64,000 bases of DNA, from the NCBI RefSeq assembly GCF_001528665.1, contig NZ_BBYJ01000004.1, forward strand, positions 374,472-438,471, read 5' to 3'. The notes under the pieces were generated by a model that was not told the DNA's origin, did no database searches, and saw only the letters and a program-made list of their open reading frames with translations. Of this stretch, positions 1,545 through 10,305 are shown piece by piece. Origin of the DNA: Microtetraspora malaysiensis. Lineage in GTDB: Bacteria > Actinomycetota > Actinomycetes > Streptosporangiales > Streptosporangiaceae. The position numbers were made by a program, and so were the translations under genes. Each line of letters begins with the position of its first letter. Position 1 is the first letter of the stretch.

Positions 1545-2435
1545 TCAGCCCTTCAGCGCGCCCGCCATGAGGCCGCGCATGAAGAACCGGCCGAGCAGCA
1601 CATACACGATCATGGTGGGGATCGACGCCAGGATCGCGGCCGCCATCTGCTGGCTGTACGGCACGGTCTGCGCGCCCGCGATGTTGTTGAGCATGACCGT
1701 CGTCGGCCACGAGCTGGGCGCGGTGAGGAAGACGGCGAACAGGAAGTCGTTCCACATCGACGTGAACTGCCAGATGACCACGACGGCGAACGCCGGGCCG
1801 GACACCGGCAGGATGATCGACCAGAACGTCCGGAGCATGCCCGCGCCGTCCACCCTGGACGCCTCGACCAGCTCGTCCGGGATCGTCACATAGTAGTTCC
1901 GGAAGATCAGCGTGCAGATCGGGATGCCGTACACCACGTGGGCGAGCGTCAGCCCGGGGATCCCGCCGTAGAGCTGGACGCCGAGCGCGTCGCCGAGATT
2001 CACCATGAGCTGGACCAGCGGGATCATCACGCCCTGGTACGGGATGAACATGCCGAACAGGAACAGGGTGAACACCAGATCGGCGCCGGGGAACCGCCAC
2101 TTCGACAGCACGTACCCGTTCATCGAGCCGAGGACGGCGGAGATCACCGACCCCGGCACGGCGAGCAGCAGGCTGTTGACGACGCCGGGCTGGAGCTTCT
2201 CCCACGCCACGCTCCACGCCTCGGTCGTCCAGACCTTCGGCAGGTTCCACGCCTGGGAGGGGTCGGCCTCCGAGAGCGGCTTGAAGCTGGTCACCACCAG
2301 CACGTAGACCGGGATCAGGAACACCACGACGAAGACCAGCAGCAGCGCCGGCCGCACCCACCGGGCGAGCGCCGCCCGCCGCCGGGCCCGCGCCACCGGG
2401 TCGGCCCGCCGTACGACCTCCTGTGCGACGCTCAT
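1545..2435 (-). CDS. Carbohydrate ABC transporter permease, MalG type (CUT1)
   Basis: A 296-residue inner-membrane permease with six predicted membrane segments; the first lies at residues 28-50. The cytoplasmic EAA loop that docks on the ATPase is at 191-210 (EASRVDGAGM followed by LRTFWSIILP). The start ATG has a strong ribosome site (GGAGGAG, 3-nt gap). It is the last gene of a three-gene sugar-uptake operon: binding lipoprotein, MalF-like permease, this gene. No ATPase gene is present, so the pair probably uses a shared MsiK-type ATPase encoded elsewhere, as is usual in actinomycetes. Confidence 0.93.
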   Translation of the reverse strand: MSVAQEVVRRADPVARARRRAALARWVRPALLLVFVVVFLIPVYVLVVTSFKPLSEADPSQAWNLPKVWTTEAWSVAWEKLQPGVVNSLLLAVPGSVISAVLGSMNGYVLSKWRFPGADLVFTLFLFGMFIPYQGVMIPLVQLMVNLGDALGVQLYGGIPGLTLAHVVYGIPICTLIFRNYYVTIPDELVEASRVDGAGMLRTFWSIILPVSGPAFAVVVIWQFTSMWNDFLFAVFLTAPSSWPTTVMLNNIAGAQTVPYSQQMAAAILASIPTMIVYVLLGRFFMRGLMAGALKG

Positions 2436-2484
2436 GACTCCTCCCCGCGCGGCGACTCGACGCCGCGTCCGTCGGCTCGCTCGC

Positions 2485-3378
2485 TCATGGCCTGTTTCCC
2501 TTGCGCGCGTTCCACACCAGATACGGAATGACGAAGACGGCGACCGAGAGCACGATGTACGCCGCGATCGTGGCCCCCTTGGCCGGGTCGTGCGAGTCGA
2601 AGACGGCCGTCCACATGAAGACCGCTGGCACGTCGGTGATGATCTGCTTGCCGGACACCGCCACGATCAGGTCGAAGACCTTCAGCGAGATGTGCCCGAG
2701 GATGATCAGGGCCGACAGGGTCACCGGGCGCAGCATCGGCAGCACGATGTACCGGTAGACCTGCCACTCGCCGCAGCCGTCCACCCGGGCGGACTCGCGC
2801 AGCTCGTCCGGCACGCTCCGGAAGCCCGCCAAGAACAACGCCATGACATATCCGGACATCTGCCAGATCGCGGGGATCGCCATCGCGGCCATCCCCCAGT
2901 CCGGATCGCGGAACCACTGCCATTCCAGGAAGCCCAGCCCGAGATGGCTGAACAGGCTGTTCAGCCCGACCGCCTGCTCCCCCATGCCGCTGTTCATCAG
3001 CCACCGCCACACCACGCCGGTGGCGATGAAGGAGACGGCCATGGGGAACAGGTAGACCGCCCGGAACCCGCCCTCCCCGCGGATGCCCTTCTCCATCAGG
3101 AAAGCCAGGAACCAGCCGAGGACGAGTGCCCCGCCGACGAAGACGACCGTGAAGACGATCGCGTGCCGGACCGAGATCCCCCAACGCTCCTGATCCCAGA
3201 TGCCGGCGAAGTTCTCCAGCCCGACGAAGCTCCCCTGGGAGATCTCGTCGTGCTGATCGCTCATCGCGACCTTGAAGTTCCAGCCGAGCAGGCCGTACAC
3301 GAAGACCGCGATGGCGACGATCGACGGCGACACCAGGAGCAGACCGGGCAGCCACCTGCGCACCCGTCTCAATTGCAC
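2485..3378 (-). CDS. Carbohydrate ABC transporter permease, MalF type (CUT1)
   Basis: A 297-residue membrane protein starting at GTG (3376-3378); a TTG six bases further in, with GAGAGG five bases ahead of it, is an alternative. The first transmembrane helix is at about residues 12-34, and the EAA loop (ESARVDGCGEW, then YRYIVLP) lies near residues 200-220. It lacks the long periplasmic insertion of E. coli MalF, as usual for Gram-positive CUT1 systems. It partners the MalG-like protein 50 bp downstream and the binding lipoprotein upstream to import an oligosaccharide. Confidence 0.93.
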   Translation of the reverse strand: MQLRRVRRWLPGLLLVSPSIVAIAVFVYGLLGWNFKVAMSDQHDEISQGSFVGLENFAGIWDQERWGISVRHAIVFTVVFVGGALVLGWFLAFLMEKGIRGEGGFRAVYLFPMAVSFIATGVVWRWLMNSGMGEQAVGLNSLFSHLGLGFLEWQWFRDPDWGMAAMAIPAIWQMSGYVMALFLAGFRSVPDELRESARVDGCGEWQVYRYIVLPMLRPVTLSALIILGHISLKVFDLIVAVSGKQIITDVPAVFMWTAVFDSHDPAKGATIAAYIVLSVAVFVIPYLVWNARKGNRP

Positions 3379-3501
3379 CTCTCAACGTCGAGGACGCGCC
3401 CGCCCGTGGGCCGCGGCGCGTCCGATGTGCTCCGCGAGCGACGAGACCGCGGCGCCCGCCGGACCGGAGCCGGAACCGGCGCGCGCCGTACGGACGTCAG
3501 G

Positions 3502-4785
3502 TCACTGCCCGCTGTTCTTGGCGGCGTCGGCCAGCGCCTGCTGGAACTTGGCGATGTCGTGGTCCTGCTGGAAGAGGCCGACGGCGTCGTTGATCGCGGC
3601 ACGCCAGGCGTCGTTCGCGACGACACCGTGCTGGATGGAGCCCGCCAGCTTGTCGCTCGCCCACTGCTCCAGATCCCAGGCGAGATAGTCCTGGTAGAGC
3701 GACTTGTCGGCGTCCTTGCGGGCCGGGATCGAACCCTTCTTGGGGTTGAAGGCGTCCTGGCCCTCCTTGCTGGCGGCGACCTTCAGCCACGCCACCGCGC
3801 CGTCCCGGTTGGGAGCGCCCTTGGGCAGGGTGAAACTGTCCGACAGCCACATGAAGGTGCCGTCCGTGCCGGGAGAGGCGGCCCAGTCGAAATCGGTCTT
3901 GGACGTCTTGCCGAGGCCGCCGGGGGCCGGGTTGTGGAAGTAGCCGTAGGCCCAGTCACCCATGATGTTGAACGCGGCCGCGCCGTCGGCGACCTGCTTG
4001 GCCGCCGGCTGCCAGTCCTCCTGCGGCGTCCCGGCGTACGACAGGATCGTCTTGAAGTTCTCCAGCGCCTTCGTCACGTTCGCGCCGGACCAGTCGGCGT
4101 TCGCCGTCCACAACTGGTTGTACGCGTCGGTGCCGAGCGAGCCGAGCAGGACGCTCTCCAGCAGGTGGACGGCGGTCCACTGGGAGCCGATGGAGAGCGG
4201 GATCTTGCCGGTCTTCTTCACCTTGTCCAGATCGGCGATGAACTCGTCGATCGTCGTGGGCGCCGCGGAGATCCCGGCCTCCTTGAGGACCGACGGGTTG
4301 AACCAGAGGACGTTGGACCGGTGGATGTTCACCGGCACCGAGTAGACCTGGCCCTGGACCGAGATCTGGTCGATCAGCTCCTGCGGCAGCGCGTCCTTCA
4401 GCTTGAGCTCGTCATAGAGGAAGTTCAGCGGCTCCAGCTTGCCCGCCTTGATGTATCCCTGCAGCTCGGCGCCCGCGTGGCCCTGGAAGGTGTCCGGGGG
4501 CTGGTTGGCCTGGAGCTTGCTGGCCAGCAGCGCGCGGGCCTGGTCACCGGAACCGCCCGCGACGGCGGCGTCATAGAACGTGAAGTCGGAGTTGTTCTTC
4601 TCGAAGATCTCTCGCATGGCCTTCAGACCATCGGCCTCGCCGGGGCCGGTCCACCAGGAGAAGACCTCGACCTTCTTCTGCCCGGACTTCCCGTCACCGG
4701 CCGCCTTGTCGCCGCTTCCACAGGCTGTAAGGGTGAGCAGACCCGCCATCGAGACCGCCACGGCCGCCAACCACCGTCGCCTCAT
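3502..4785 (-). CDS. Extracellular sugar-binding lipoprotein of CUT1 ABC importer
   Basis: A 427-residue solute-binding protein (family 1). The chosen ATG at 4783-4785 gives a classical lipoprotein signal: MRRR, a hydrophobic core, then the lipobox LTAC with C22 as the lipid-anchored residue; an AAGGGAT ribosome site lies just upstream. The upstream in-frame start at 4854 would put 23 non-signal residues ahead of it and would lie inside the operator. The mature protein has the mixed alpha/beta pattern of maltose- or glucoside-binding proteins (FSWWTG near the first strand, aromatic-rich cleft). The substrate is probably a beta-glucoside or alpha-oligosaccharide, but this is inference. Confidence 0.93.
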   Translation of the reverse strand: MRRRWLAAVAVSMAGLLTLTACGSGDKAAGDGKSGQKKVEVFSWWTGPGEADGLKAMREIFEKNNSDFTFYDAAVAGGSGDQARALLASKLQANQPPDTFQGHAGAELQGYIKAGKLEPLNFLYDELKLKDALPQELIDQISVQGQVYSVPVNIHRSNVLWFNPSVLKEAGISAAPTTIDEFIADLDKVKKTGKIPLSIGSQWTAVHLLESVLLGSLGTDAYNQLWTANADWSGANVTKALENFKTILSYAGTPQEDWQPAAKQVADGAAAFNIMGDWAYGYFHNPAPGGLGKTSKTDFDWAASPGTDGTFMWLSDSFTLPKGAPNRDGAVAWLKVAASKEGQDAFNPKKGSIPARKDADKSLYQDYLAWDLEQWASDKLAGSIQHGVVANDAWRAAINDAVGLFQQDHDIAKFQQALADAAKNSGQ

Positions 4786-7261: not shown

Positions 7262-7666
7262 TCAGGAGGCGGGCTCGTCCTGGCGCTCGCAGAGCCCGTC
7301 GGGGATGGCCAGCACGTCCCTGTAGAACTGGATCTTGTGCTGGATCGCCCCCTGCTGCCGTCGCAGGTCGGCGATCTTGTCCTCGACGGCCTGGTCGTGC
7401 GCCGCGAGCAGAGCGATCCGGTCGCTGATCGTGTGCTCGCCCGCACGGGTGAGCTCGGCGAAGCGCAGCATCTCGGCGATCGGCATGCCGGTGTCCCGCA
7501 GGCAGCGGATCATGCCGAGCCAGCCGATGTCTCCGTCGCTGAAGCGGCGCTGCCCCACGGCGTTGCGCTCGATCGGCTCCAGCAGCCCGATGCGCTCGTA
7601 ATAGCGGAGCGTGTCCAGGCTGAACCCGGTCTCCTCGGCGGCCTGTCCCGGTGTGTAGGCGGTCAC
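7262..7666 (-). CDS. MerR family transcriptional regulator
   Basis: A 134-residue MerR protein. The chosen GTG (7664-7666) gives the family-typical N-terminus VTAYTPGQAA with helix-turn-helix 1-20 and wing TLRYYERIGLL at about 19-29; a long dimerisation helix follows (about 75-115). No conserved Cys pair is present, so a metal sensor is unlikely; the length and tail resemble the regulators of carbonyl or aldehyde stress genes. The GTG lies exactly 7 nt after a -10 element, so the mRNA is probably leaderless; the GGAGG that overlaps this gap is too close (1 nt) to act as a normal ribosome site. It probably regulates itself and the aldo/keto reductase at 9394. Confidence 0.9.
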   Translation of the reverse strand: MTAYTPGQAAEETGFSLDTLRYYERIGLLEPIERNAVGQRRFSDGDIGWLGMIRCLRDTGMPIAEMLRFAELTRAGEHTISDRIALLAAHDQAVEDKIADLRRQQGAIQHKIQFYRDVLAIPDGLCERQDEPAS

Positions 7667-7673
7667 GCCTCCG

Positions 7674-7704
7674 ATCGTGGCACGTGGAGCGTGCTCCAGG
7701 TCAA
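7674..7704 (-). promoter_or_regulatory. MerR-type autoregulated promoter with operator
   Basis: On the minus strand: -35 TTGACC (7699-7704), a 19-bp spacer holding the inverted repeat TGGAG-N4-CTCCA (7685-7698), and -10 CACGAT (7674-7679). The over-long 19-bp spacer with the dyad between -35 and -10 is the signature of MerR activation by DNA untwisting. The same design is found at 9356-9386. Confidence 0.7.
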
Positions 7705-7763
7705 GCCGACCGGGCCGAGGCGCGGCACATGGTGCCCGGGGCACCACGAGGCGTCGTGGCGGG

Positions 7764-8231
7764 TTACCCCGCCTCGGCGGTCAGCCGTCGAGCCTGGTCA
7801 CGGCCCACTTCGGCGGTCCGGTGGAGATAGTCGGCGATGATCCCCAGTTCCTCGGCCGTGTAGCGCTCGAGCGCCGCGCCGAATGCCTTGCCCGGGACCT
7901 CCCAAGCTTCCGCGGTGCGCGTGGCCGCGTCGGGAGCCAGGGCGACGAGCGCCCGTCTGCGGTCGTGCGGGTCGGGCTGCCGCTGTACGAAGCCCGCCTT
8001 CTCCAGGCGGTCGACCAGCCGTGAGGCCGATCCCGACGACAGGCCGGTGAGCCGGGCGATCTCCCCGGTCGTCACCGGACCGGGCTCCAGGTCGAGCAGC
8101 GCGATGCACTGCACGTCGGTGGGGTGCAGCCCGATCCGGTCGGCCATCGCCTGGTTGAACAGGCTGTAGGCGGCGTAATGCCGCTGGCTCTCCTCCGCGA
8201 CGCGCGCGAGCAACTCCGCCCGGTTTGACAC
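7764..8231 (-). CDS. MarR family transcriptional regulator
   Basis: A 155-residue MarR-type protein. GTG at 8229-8231 was chosen because GGAGG stands six bases upstream and the protein then begins right at the first dimerisation helix. The winged helix spans about residues 53-95, with TTGEIARLTGL, then SGSASRLVDRLEKAGFV and the wing DPHDRRR. It is divergent from the NmrA-like oxidoreductase gene and probably represses it from the shared 180-bp intergenic region. The ligand is unknown. Confidence 0.92.
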   Translation of the reverse strand: MSNRAELLARVAEESQRHYAAYSLFNQAMADRIGLHPTDVQCIALLDLEPGPVTTGEIARLTGLSSGSASRLVDRLEKAGFVQRQPDPHDRRRALVALAPDAATRTAEAWEVPGKAFGAALERYTAEELGIIADYLHRTAEVGRDQARRLTAEAG

Positions 8232-8281
8232 CTGGCACCTCCATGCTTCAAATTTGCCTTCGTCGCGCAGATATTTCTTCA

Positions 8282-8300
8282 CGCACATTGTGTGCGACAA
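8282..8300. promoter_or_regulatory. Candidate MarR operator
   Basis: Two overlapping dyads: CGCACA-TTG-TGTGCG (8282-8296) and TTGT-N5-ACAA (8288-8300). The second has the spacing of many MarR-family sites. The block lies between the divergent MarR and NmrA-like genes. Confidence 0.45.
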
Positions 8301-8414
8301 AGCATCTGCGTCACGTTCACATTCTATTCGGCTTCGCAAACGGGGATACGTGTGTCCTCGCCCCCGTGGCCGCGCAGGGCCCCGGCGGGCCACCACTGAA
8401 AAGGAGTCACCGAA

Positions 8415-9236
8415 ATGACCGTTCTCGTCACCGGGAACCGCGGCGCCGTCGCCCGGACCCTCATCGGCCTGCTGCGTGAGCGCGGGCTCGCCGTCCGCGC
8501 CGCGTCCAGCCGGCCCGCCGGCCCGGAGACCATCCGGTGCGACCTCACCGACCCGTCCACCTTCGCCGCCGCGCTCAATGGCGTGACCTCGGTCTTCCTC
8601 TACGCCGAGCCCTCCCACATCGGCGCGTTCACCGAGGAGGCCGCCGCCGCCGGCGTCGAGCACATCGTGCTGCTGTCCTCCTCCTCGGTCCTCGCCCCGG
8701 ACGCCGAGAAGAGCCCGCTGGCCACGTCGCACCTGGATGTGGAAAGGGCGCTCGACGCCTCCTCCCTCCACTCGACGTCGCTGCGGCCGGGAGCGTTCGC
8801 GAGCAACGCGCTCGCGTGGAGCTGGAGCCTGCGGTCGGGCCGGCCGATCAGCCTGCCCTTCCCCGGCGCGCACAGCGACCCGATCCACGAAGCCGACATC
8901 GCCGAGGCCGCCCTCGCCGTGCTCACCGATCCCGGCCTGGGCGGACGGCCGTACACCCTGACCGGTCCGGAGTCGCTGACCTTCGCCGAACAGCTCGACA
9001 TCCTGAGCCGGGTGACCGGCCGGCCCTTCCCCTTCCGGCAGGTCACCCGCGAGGAATGGAAGCAGGAGATGGCCGAGCACATCCCCGCCTCCTACGCCGA
9101 CTCCCTCCTGAACTGGTGGCAGTCCAGCGACGGCGTTCCCGTCCAGCCGACCCAGGCCGTGCCGGAGCTGACCGGACACCCCGCGCGCACCTTCGCGACC
9201 TGGGCGCGAGACCACGCGGGCGACTTCCGCGCATGA
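8415..9236 (+). CDS. NmrA/SDR-like NAD(P)-binding oxidoreductase
   Basis: A 273-residue protein with an N-terminal Rossmann fold: VLVTGNRGAVARTL at residues 3-16, in which the usual GxxGxxG is changed to GNRGAV, then IRCDLTD for the second nucleotide-binding strand. It lacks the YxxxK pair of classical short-chain dehydrogenases, as expected for atypical NmrA-type members. The ATG has AGGAG eight bases upstream. Divergent from the MarR gene, it is a likely target of it. Members act as quinone or flavin reductases or as redox-sensing regulators; which applies here is not visible. Confidence 0.85.
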   Translation: MTVLVTGNRGAVARTLIGLLRERGLAVRAASSRPAGPETIRCDLTDPSTFAAALNGVTSVFLYAEPSHIGAFTEEAAAAGVEHIVLLSSSSVLAPDAEKSPLATSHLDVERALDASSLHSTSLRPGAFASNALAWSWSLRSGRPISLPFPGAHSDPIHEADIAEAALAVLTDPGLGGRPYTLTGPESLTFAEQLDILSRVTGRPFPFRQVTREEWKQEMAEHIPASYADSLLNWWQSSDGVPVQPTQAVPELTGHPARTFATWARDHAGDFRA

Positions 9237-9355
9237 CCGAGATCTCCCCCGTCCGGCGCCGGGGACCGGGCACGTCCTTCGAGATCACGGCCATCGGCGT
9301 CGTCGCCCGGGCGGTTGCGCCGGCGGCCGGCGACGCGTACGCCGACGCCGACCGG

Positions 9356-9386
9356 TTGCGCTGGAGTGCGCTCCAGCGTGCAGCGT
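9356..9386 (+). promoter_or_regulatory. MerR-type promoter of the aldo/keto reductase gene
   Basis: -35 TTGCGC (9356-9361), 19-bp spacer, -10 CAGCGT (9381-9386). An 8-bp perfect inverted repeat (CGCTGGAG-TGCG-CTCCAGCG, 9359-9378) fills the spacer. The half-site TGGAG/CTCCA and the 19-bp spacing are the same as at the MerR gene promoter, and the ATG at 9394 stands 7 nt beyond the -10, the same distance as there. Confidence 0.65.
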
Positions 9387-9393
9387 GTACGCC

Positions 9394-10305
9394 ATGAAAC
9401 TCGCGTTGGGCGCCCTCCCGTTCGGCACCGCGGTGGACGAGGCCACCTCGTTCGCGATCCTGGACCGGTTCGCCGAGAGCGGCGGCACGATCGTGGACAC
9501 CTCGAACAACTACTCCTTCTGGATCCCGGGAGCGACCGGGGACGAGAGCGAGCGCACGGTCGGCCGGTGGCTCGCCTCGCGCCGCGTACGCGACCGGATC
9601 ACGGTGAGCACCAAGTGCGGGGCGCGTCCCACCGTCCCCGGCGACACCACGCTCGATTCAGCCGAGGGCCTCTCCGCGGCCACCGTCCGCGAGGCGGCCG
9701 AGGGCAGCCTGCGCCGGCTCGGCCTCGACCGCCTCGACATCTACTGGGCGCACATCGAGGACCGTTCCGTCCCGTTGGAGGAGACCGTCGAGGCGCTCGG
9801 CGAGCTGGCGGCGGCGGGCAAGGTCGGCGTGCTCGGCGCGAGCAACCATCCGGCCTGGCGGGTCGAGCGCGCCCGGCGGATCGCCGCCGGCCTCGGCCGG
9901 ACGCCGTACACCTGCCTCCAACTGCGGCATTCCTACCTGCGCCCGCGTCCGGGCGTTCGGCTGCCGGAAGGCGGTCACGTCCAGGTGACCGAGGAGACCC
10001 TGGACTATGTGCGCTCGGAGCCGGACCTGACGCTCTGGGTCTACTCGTCGCTGCTCTCGGGCGCGTACACCGCCAAGCCGCTGCCCGAGCTGTACGACCA
10101 CCCCGGGACGGCCCGGCGGCTCGCCGCTCTGGACGGCGTGGCGCGCGAGCTGGGCGCGACCCGCAACCAGGTCGTGCTGGCCTGGCTGCGCGCCCAGGGC
10201 ATCCTGCCGATCGTGGGGGCCAGCTCGGCGGCCCAGCTCGACGAGCTGCTGGTCGAGGTGGACCTGGACCCGGCGCTGCGCGCCCGGCTGGACGAGCCCG
10301 CCTGA
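9394..10305 (+). CDS. Aldo/keto reductase
   Basis: A 303-residue TIM-barrel NADPH-dependent oxidoreductase. The catalytic tetrad can be placed: D35 and Y40 in VDTSNNYS, K74 in VSTKCG, H120 in YWAH. The NADPH-binding end (VLAWLRAQGILPIVGASS) is near residues 265-280. It probably reduces aldehydes or ketones, perhaps dicarbonyl or electrophile stress compounds given its MerR-type promoter. The ATG at 9394 has no ribosome site and sits at the expected transcription start, so translation is probably leaderless; GTG 9385 is the only nearby alternative. Confidence 0.93.
   Translation: MKLALGALPFGTAVDEATSFAILDRFAESGGTIVDTSNNYSFWIPGATGDESERTVGRWLASRRVRDRITVSTKCGARPTVPGDTTLDSAEGLSAATVREAAEGSLRRLGLDRLDIYWAHIEDRSVPLEETVEALGELAAAGKVGVLGASNHPAWRVERARRIAAGLGRTPYTCLQLRHSYLRPRPGVRLPEGGHVQVTEETLDYVRSEPDLTLWVYSSLLSGAYTAKPLPELYDHPGTARRLAALDGVARELGATRNQVVLAWLRAQGILPIVGASSAAQLDELLVEVDLDPALRARLDEPA

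Follow-up and report, generated by a model that had tools for sequence, protein, structure and literature searches.

The closest described systems to the locus studied here are the NmlR/AdhR clade of MerR-type regulators, the CvkR-Cas12k pair and the SoxR-type operators of actinomycetes. In the NmlR/AdhR clade, a cysteine is reported to be required for responding to formaldehyde, with H. influenzae and B. subtilis as the species in which the requirement is described (PMC4776306). CvkR is a MerR-type repressor of Anabaena 7120, and both cvkR and the divergent cas12k have leaderless mRNAs (PMC9938897). Leaderless genes exceed 20% in Actinobacteria (PMC3160421). In S. lividans 17% of transcripts are leaderless, in S. 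coelicolor 21%, and the S. lividans -10 element lies on average 6.3 nucleotides (nt) from the start (PMC8079986). In a 64,000-nt stretch of the Microtetraspora malaysiensis genome (contig NZ_BBYJ01000004.1, positions 374,472 to 438,471; hereafter the window), we analyzed a putative two-gene regulon consisting of merR, encoding an NmlR-like MerR regulator, and an aldo/keto reductase gene. Each gene has the same operator dyad in a 19-base pair (bp) promoter spacer, and both mRNAs are predicted to be leaderless (Table 1).

In each promoter the dyad is followed by 5 nt (CGTGC on the merR side, GCGTG on the reductase side), the -10 hexamer, 7 nt and the start codon (GTG at 7666-7664 and ATG at 9394, respectively). 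The dyad-to-start distance is 18 nt and the spacer 19 bp at both. As in other 19-bp-spacer MerR-type promoters, the dyad lies between the -35 and -10 elements in the window and in relatives. At both genes, and in the relatives, the -10 is positioned for transcription to start at the start codon. The original prediction, made from the window sequence, gave the coordinates, the TGGAG-N4-CTCCA dyad, the 19-bp spacer and the 7-nt gap at both genes exact to the base. It also called the two promoters identical, which holds for the dyad arms, the spacer length and the start distance but not for the -10 hexamers CACGAT and CAGCGT, which have only C1, A2 and T6 in common. With 7 nt between the end of the -10 and each start codon, the two mRNAs would begin at or near the start codon; the -10-to-start gap found here is 6-8 nt, compared with the S. 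lividans mean of 6.3 nt. The first 57 nt of the predicted reductase mRNA show no extra structure (fold z +1.0 versus shuffles).

A genome scan for the dyad pattern had been proposed as a way to define the regulon. The pattern TTGNNNTGGAGNNNNCTCCA with 0 mismatches occurs twice in the 8,820,049-base genome, at the two window promoters, and its reversed-pattern control does not occur. Both perfect sites also matched when RTG was required exactly at +18 (a genus-level search in which the genus is represented by one genome). With one mismatch allowed, there were 7 genome matches including these two, against 21 for the reversed control, so additional sites are not above background and a wider regulon in the M. 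malaysiensis genome was rejected. In the window, up to two mismatches gave 2 matches versus a shuffle mean of 0.31 (100 shuffles; 2 reached in 4). A chance origin of the operator pair was rejected by the shuffles, the whole-genome count and the reversed control. By the TGGAG-N4-CTCCA dyad, the predicted regulon is two genes.

Orthologous loci were collected by a contig scan with the window regulator, and the best 80 of 153 relatives were kept (the 80 loci). By name they belong mostly to genera that we take to be Streptosporangiaceae, plus eight Actinomadura and one Streptomyces. The closest relative among them is Microtetraspora fusca L005 (regulator 91% and reductase 93% identical). The dyad (up to 2 mismatches) is found within 75 nt upstream of 62 of the 80 merR orthologs, and all 62 start 17 nt (18 genes), 18 nt (41) or 19 nt (3) after it. 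A reductase match with at least 50% identity is present in 45 loci, always divergent from merR; the other 35 have none inside the stretch examined, and a 28% match in L053 was excluded from the count. The merR-reductase gap is below 500 bp in 38 of these 45 loci and about 1.9 kilobases (kb) in seven, all Microbispora. Of 46 reductase matches in the 45 loci, 44 start 17 nt (3), 18 nt (40) or 19 nt (1) past the dyad; one of the 44, in L047, is a frame shortened to 94 codons. The remaining two are the L067 gene, which appears to be broken, and the L070 reductase, which lies about 0.35 kb from the operator and is now behind GGAGG. The proposed two-gene MerR regulon, with predicted leaderless geometry at both promoters, is thus conserved at merR (62/62) and at the reductase (44/46).

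Some loci show variations of this arrangement. In Rhizohabitans arisaemae L078 (3678 and 5480, minus strand) there are two reductase copies, each with the operator followed by an ATG after 17 nt. In Microbispora L013 the interval between the reductase and merR (2118-3990) holds a long frame, pentapeptide-repeat-like by eye. Three Acrocarpospora loci (L007 3935, L009 3935 and L026 3934, minus strand) have no reductase match but retain a divergent operator that is followed 17 nt later by an ATG, possibly a relic of a lost gene. In Actinomadura L075, L076, L079, L080 and L084 the same operator faces a divergent, leadered luciferase-like monooxygenase gene whose start is 42-69 nt away.

The start-site signals are conserved together with the spacing. 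The -10 positions A2 and T6 are present in 61 of 62 merR ortholog promoters. Where the distance is exactly 18 nt they are present in 41/41 operators before merR and 40/40 elsewhere; none of these 81 hexamers begins with T. Immediately upstream of the start codon stands a C or T in 57/62 merR and 44/44 reductase genes, and the first base of the start codon itself is a purine, as expected of a transcription start. By one procedure, a correctly placed NANNNT was found at 74/79 merR, 40/43 reductase, 3/53 GH1 and 4/22 TetR starts, and a Shine-Dalgarno 4-mer at -15 to -4 at 25/79, 6/43, 42/53 and 0/22, respectively; the TetR starts of this control are less certain, and rows with an alignment short of the start were dropped there. 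Among the 18 merR genes without an operator within 75 nt, 14 keep a CAGGAT that is separated from GTG by 7 nt and lies within TG(A/C)CAGGATC (L011-L013, L015, L016, L019, L020, L023, L027, L028, L033, L036, L038 and L045; genera Microbispora, Planotetraspora and Sphaerimonospora). The string is absent in the other four (L051, L060, L077 and L080). The -10 and the start codon therefore stay together once the operator is gone.

The window regulator carries the DNA-binding domain and the MerR-DNA-bind helix of the MerR family (Pfam MerR_1, 2.6e-17; MerR-DNA-bind, 2.4e-08; both above curated cut-offs). Its top NCBIfam model is NmlR (NF041849, 1.9e-28, 98.8 bits). The top PDB sequence matches, with near-equal scores, are 5e01 (HI_0186), 5d8c and 5d90, of which the last two are titled MerR family regulator; we take HI_0186 to be an H. 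influenzae protein and all three entries to be NmlR structures. Cys55 aligns with the QCLKNTGM cysteine of the top-scoring PDB chains, and it is kept in 80/80 orthologs; the corresponding NmlR sensing cysteine is Cys54 in H. influenzae. Induction by aldehydes or electrophiles, as suggested in the original prediction, would fit an NmlR-like protein with the conserved clade cysteine. The divergent target differs from that of NmlR: it is an aldo/keto reductase gene and not adhC/estD. In other genera, four regulators with same-pattern operators (L108, L109, L110 and L112) lack the cysteine by eye (e.g., RLRSTGMPI), and they may sense another signal.

These observations are probably best explained as follows. 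The NmlR-like regulator would bind TGGAG-N4-CTCCA in the over-long 19-bp spacers of its own and the reductase promoter. Without inducer, the -35 and -10 elements would be out of register and expression low. An aldehyde or other electrophile would modify Cys55, upon which the dimer would untwist the spacer and RNA polymerase would start both genes. Both mRNAs would begin at, or about 1 base from, the start codon and be translated as leaderless messages. The regulator would thus increase both its own amount and the amount of a carbonyl-reducing enzyme, whose substrate would include the inducing carbonyl, so that the reductase would remove it. We consider this explanation as a whole, NmlR-like untwisting of two 19-bp-spacer promoters with both mRNAs leaderless, to be likely.

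The original prediction regarded the coupling of MerR untwisting to leaderless translation as unusual. A class-wide sample blind to start codons was made with TTGACNTGGAGNNNNCTCCANG against 296 Actinomycetes genomes. It gave 52 sites in 42 genomes. In 50 of the sites we looked 17-19 nt past the dyad for an ATG or GTG that begins an open frame of 80 codons or more. This spacing was found at 41/50 sites, and at 37/46 after removal of the window site and three sites identical to named-locus sites. One or more spaced sites occur in 16 of 19 genera (mean share by genus 0.78). Of the genes behind the 50 sites, 29 encode MerR regulators, 11 aldo/keto reductases, 4 short-chain dehydrogenases and 4 luciferase-like monooxygenases, while 2 belong to none of these groups. 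The spacing occurs at 28/29 merR, 10/11 reductase, 2/4 dehydrogenase and 0/4 luciferase-like genes; the nine sites without it precede four luciferase-like genes, two dehydrogenase genes, one reductase gene, one merR (L140) and one unassigned gene. A phylum-wide scan with a stricter dyad gave matches in 5 of 396 genomes.

SoxR, a redox cluster sensor, offers a second operator type. Using TCAA-N6-TTGA, which we take to be the SoxR-type motif, we examined 30 sites: 17 of them have a start codon 17-19 nt past the dyad, and 24 have the -10 A and T at matching positions. HspR is a MerR-family repressor. With a motif that we take to be HspR-type, sites were found in 11 of 98 genomes. In five of the 11 (L185-L189) the dnaK start, recognized by eye, is 19-21 nt from the site and behind GGAGGAA, so these genes are predicted to be leadered despite the similar distance. 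Outside the class, two of four loci have a dyad promoter by the pattern used and two have none; the annotated start is 41 nt from the dyad in Shinella, and in Priestia one annotated start is 111 nt away and the other 78 nt, the latter with its first ATG at 63. Nonomuraea, the fifth locus in this contrast set, has 18 and 18 nt. The HspR and outside-class contrasts are small. Binomial tails against a share of 0.21 are 5e-20 for 41/50 and 2e-5 for 17/30, but the sites share descent and these values are not reliable as probabilities. Judged from these spacings, the coupling is real and common in the class and not peculiar to this genome. The word unusual is contradicted by the NmlR-like and SoxR-type counts and by the published CvkR pair, and more generally by the 17-21% of leaderless transcripts in two Streptomyces (PMC8079986).

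What this enrichment means can be read in two ways. It is possible, although we hold it tentatively, that 19-bp-spacer MerR-type promoters of Actinomycetes have a preference for leaderless mRNAs (the start codon is 17-19 nt past the dyad at most NmlR-like sites and many SoxR-type ones, over several target families and genera), with the few relatives outside the class leadered, and that selection couples a fast stress promoter to leader-free translation. Alternatively, the leaderless state may not be co-selected with MerR control and may simply come with the genes of a leaderless-rich group, as the Streptomyces shares (PMC8079986) would suggest. Leaderlessness does track the downstream gene, from nearly all merR and reductase genes to half of the dehydrogenase and none of the luciferase-like genes. 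On the other hand, 41/50 and 17/30 are above the published share, although relatedness was handled by genus only, and the spacing is common to reductases with visibly different N-termini and to two dehydrogenases. We consider the chances of this alternative evenly balanced; it is compatible with the untwisting explanation of the window promoters.

The regulator could instead be purely a repressor that occupies the promoter with no activation by untwisting. With the dyad spanning the spacer, a bound regulator could block the promoter. That 61 of 62 ortholog promoters keep the -10 at 19 bp from the -35, with a first hexamer base that is never T (41 merR and 40 other promoters), argues against pure repression: 19-bp spacing with a non-T hexamer start is the set-up of distortion-activated promoters. 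CvkR shows that a MerR-type repressor can have a leaderless divergent pair (PMC9938897), but the window regulator has its nearest match in NmlR, which belongs to a clade described among activators (PMC4776306). We regard pure repression as unlikely.

Several observations weigh against untwisting with leaderless mRNAs. The regulator's NCBIfam score is under the NmlR cut-off of 175 bits, hence the designation NmlR-like only. The T that opens TAnnnT is missing from the -10 hexamers. A GGAGG is found 1 nt upstream of the window merR GTG; 4 of 80 orthologs have a GGAGG in the 10 nt that precede merR, and Shine-Dalgarno-like 4-mers precede 25/79 merR and 6/43 reductase genes. A dyad-like match in L080, the 63rd locus at a 120-nt limit, is not 17-19 nt from merR, and L140 is a leadered merR relative with the operator whose start is 62 nt away. 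Leadered mRNAs from other upstream promoters, with the 18-nt spacing a matter of compact packing, could account for L140, the displaced L070 reductase behind GGAGG and the five Actinomadura targets, but are very improbable given the spacing kept at 62/62 merR, 44/46 reductase and 41/50 class-wide sites, GGAGG before just 4/80 merR, and -10 and start codon together in 14/18 merR that lack the operator within 75 nt.

Table 1. Features of the merR-reductase locus, in window positions (aa, amino acids).
Feature	Position	Strand	Description
merR promoter	7704-7674	minus	-35 TTGACC 7704-7699; 19-bp spacer; -10 CACGAT 7679-7674
MerR operator dyad TGGAG-CACG-CTCCA, merR promoter	7698-7685	minus	read from sequence
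Reductase promoter	9356-9386	plus	-35 TTGCGC 9356-9361; 19-bp spacer; -10 CAGCGT 9381-9386
MerR operator dyad TGGAG-TGCG-CTCCA, reductase promoter	9362-9375	plus	read from sequence
merR	7262..7666	minus	134 aa, NmlR-like MerR regulator, GTG start, Cys55
Aldo/keto reductase, target gene	9394..10305	plus	303 aa, ATG start; Pfam Aldo_ket_red 9.1e-44
Stretch without counterpart in M. fusca L005	7716..9320		1605 nt versus 105 nt in L005; carries MarR/NmrA pair
MarR-type regulator	7764..8231	minus	GTG behind GGAGGT, start by reading sequence; Pfam MarR_2 1.6e-17 (13-residue longer reading)
NmrA-like NAD(P)-binding protein	8415..9236	plus	behind AAAAGGAG; Pfam NAD_binding_10 2e-11, NmrA 3.2e-11

A MarR/NmrA pair lies between merR and the reductase gene, as originally predicted, in a 1.6-kb stretch. 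Its flanks align with M. fusca L005 by blastn (window 7600-7715, 98.3%, and 9321-9450, 90.0% identical). The MarR and NmrA genes are divergent and, unlike the two regulon genes, each is behind a Shine-Dalgarno sequence. By tblastn at 1e-8, neither had a match in any of the 80 loci, of which six extend less than 3.9 kb upstream of merR. Unmatched and both behind Shine-Dalgarno sequences, they were rejected as regulon members. The most economical reading is that they form a leadered cassette inserted between the divergent pair, with each operator staying with its own gene.

None of the titles and abstract openings listed states a link between MerR control and leaderless mRNAs in actinomycetes, with most subscription journals outside the search. 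In a literature text search with six operator strings, the matches listed concerned animal, human-disease and virus topics and none concerned MerR. A two-site regulon with a fixed operator-start geometry can help to find MerR-type regulons and to correct actinomycete start codons from sequence. If it holds against a proper background, the class-wide enrichment would tie one transcription-activation mechanism to one translation-initiation mode, and existing start-site maps could test this link.

Among known systems, the locus is most like the NmlR/AdhR clade of H. influenzae, Neisseria and B. subtilis in its best PDB and NCBIfam match, in the aligned conserved cysteine and in a regulator divergent from a detoxifying oxidoreductase (PMC4776306). 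It differs in having an aldo/keto reductase instead of AdhC, a score below the NmlR cut-off and the leaderless geometry. CvkR-Cas12k shares a MerR-type regulator and a divergent target, both leaderless (here predicted), but CvkR is a repressor with its own dimerization mode, no recognizable effector site and a 15-nt motif (PMC9938897). The actinomycete SoxR-type operators share the 17-19 nt start spacing (17/30) and the -10 A/T places (24/30); they differ in the dyad, TCAA-N6-TTGA, and are less often predicted to be leaderless.

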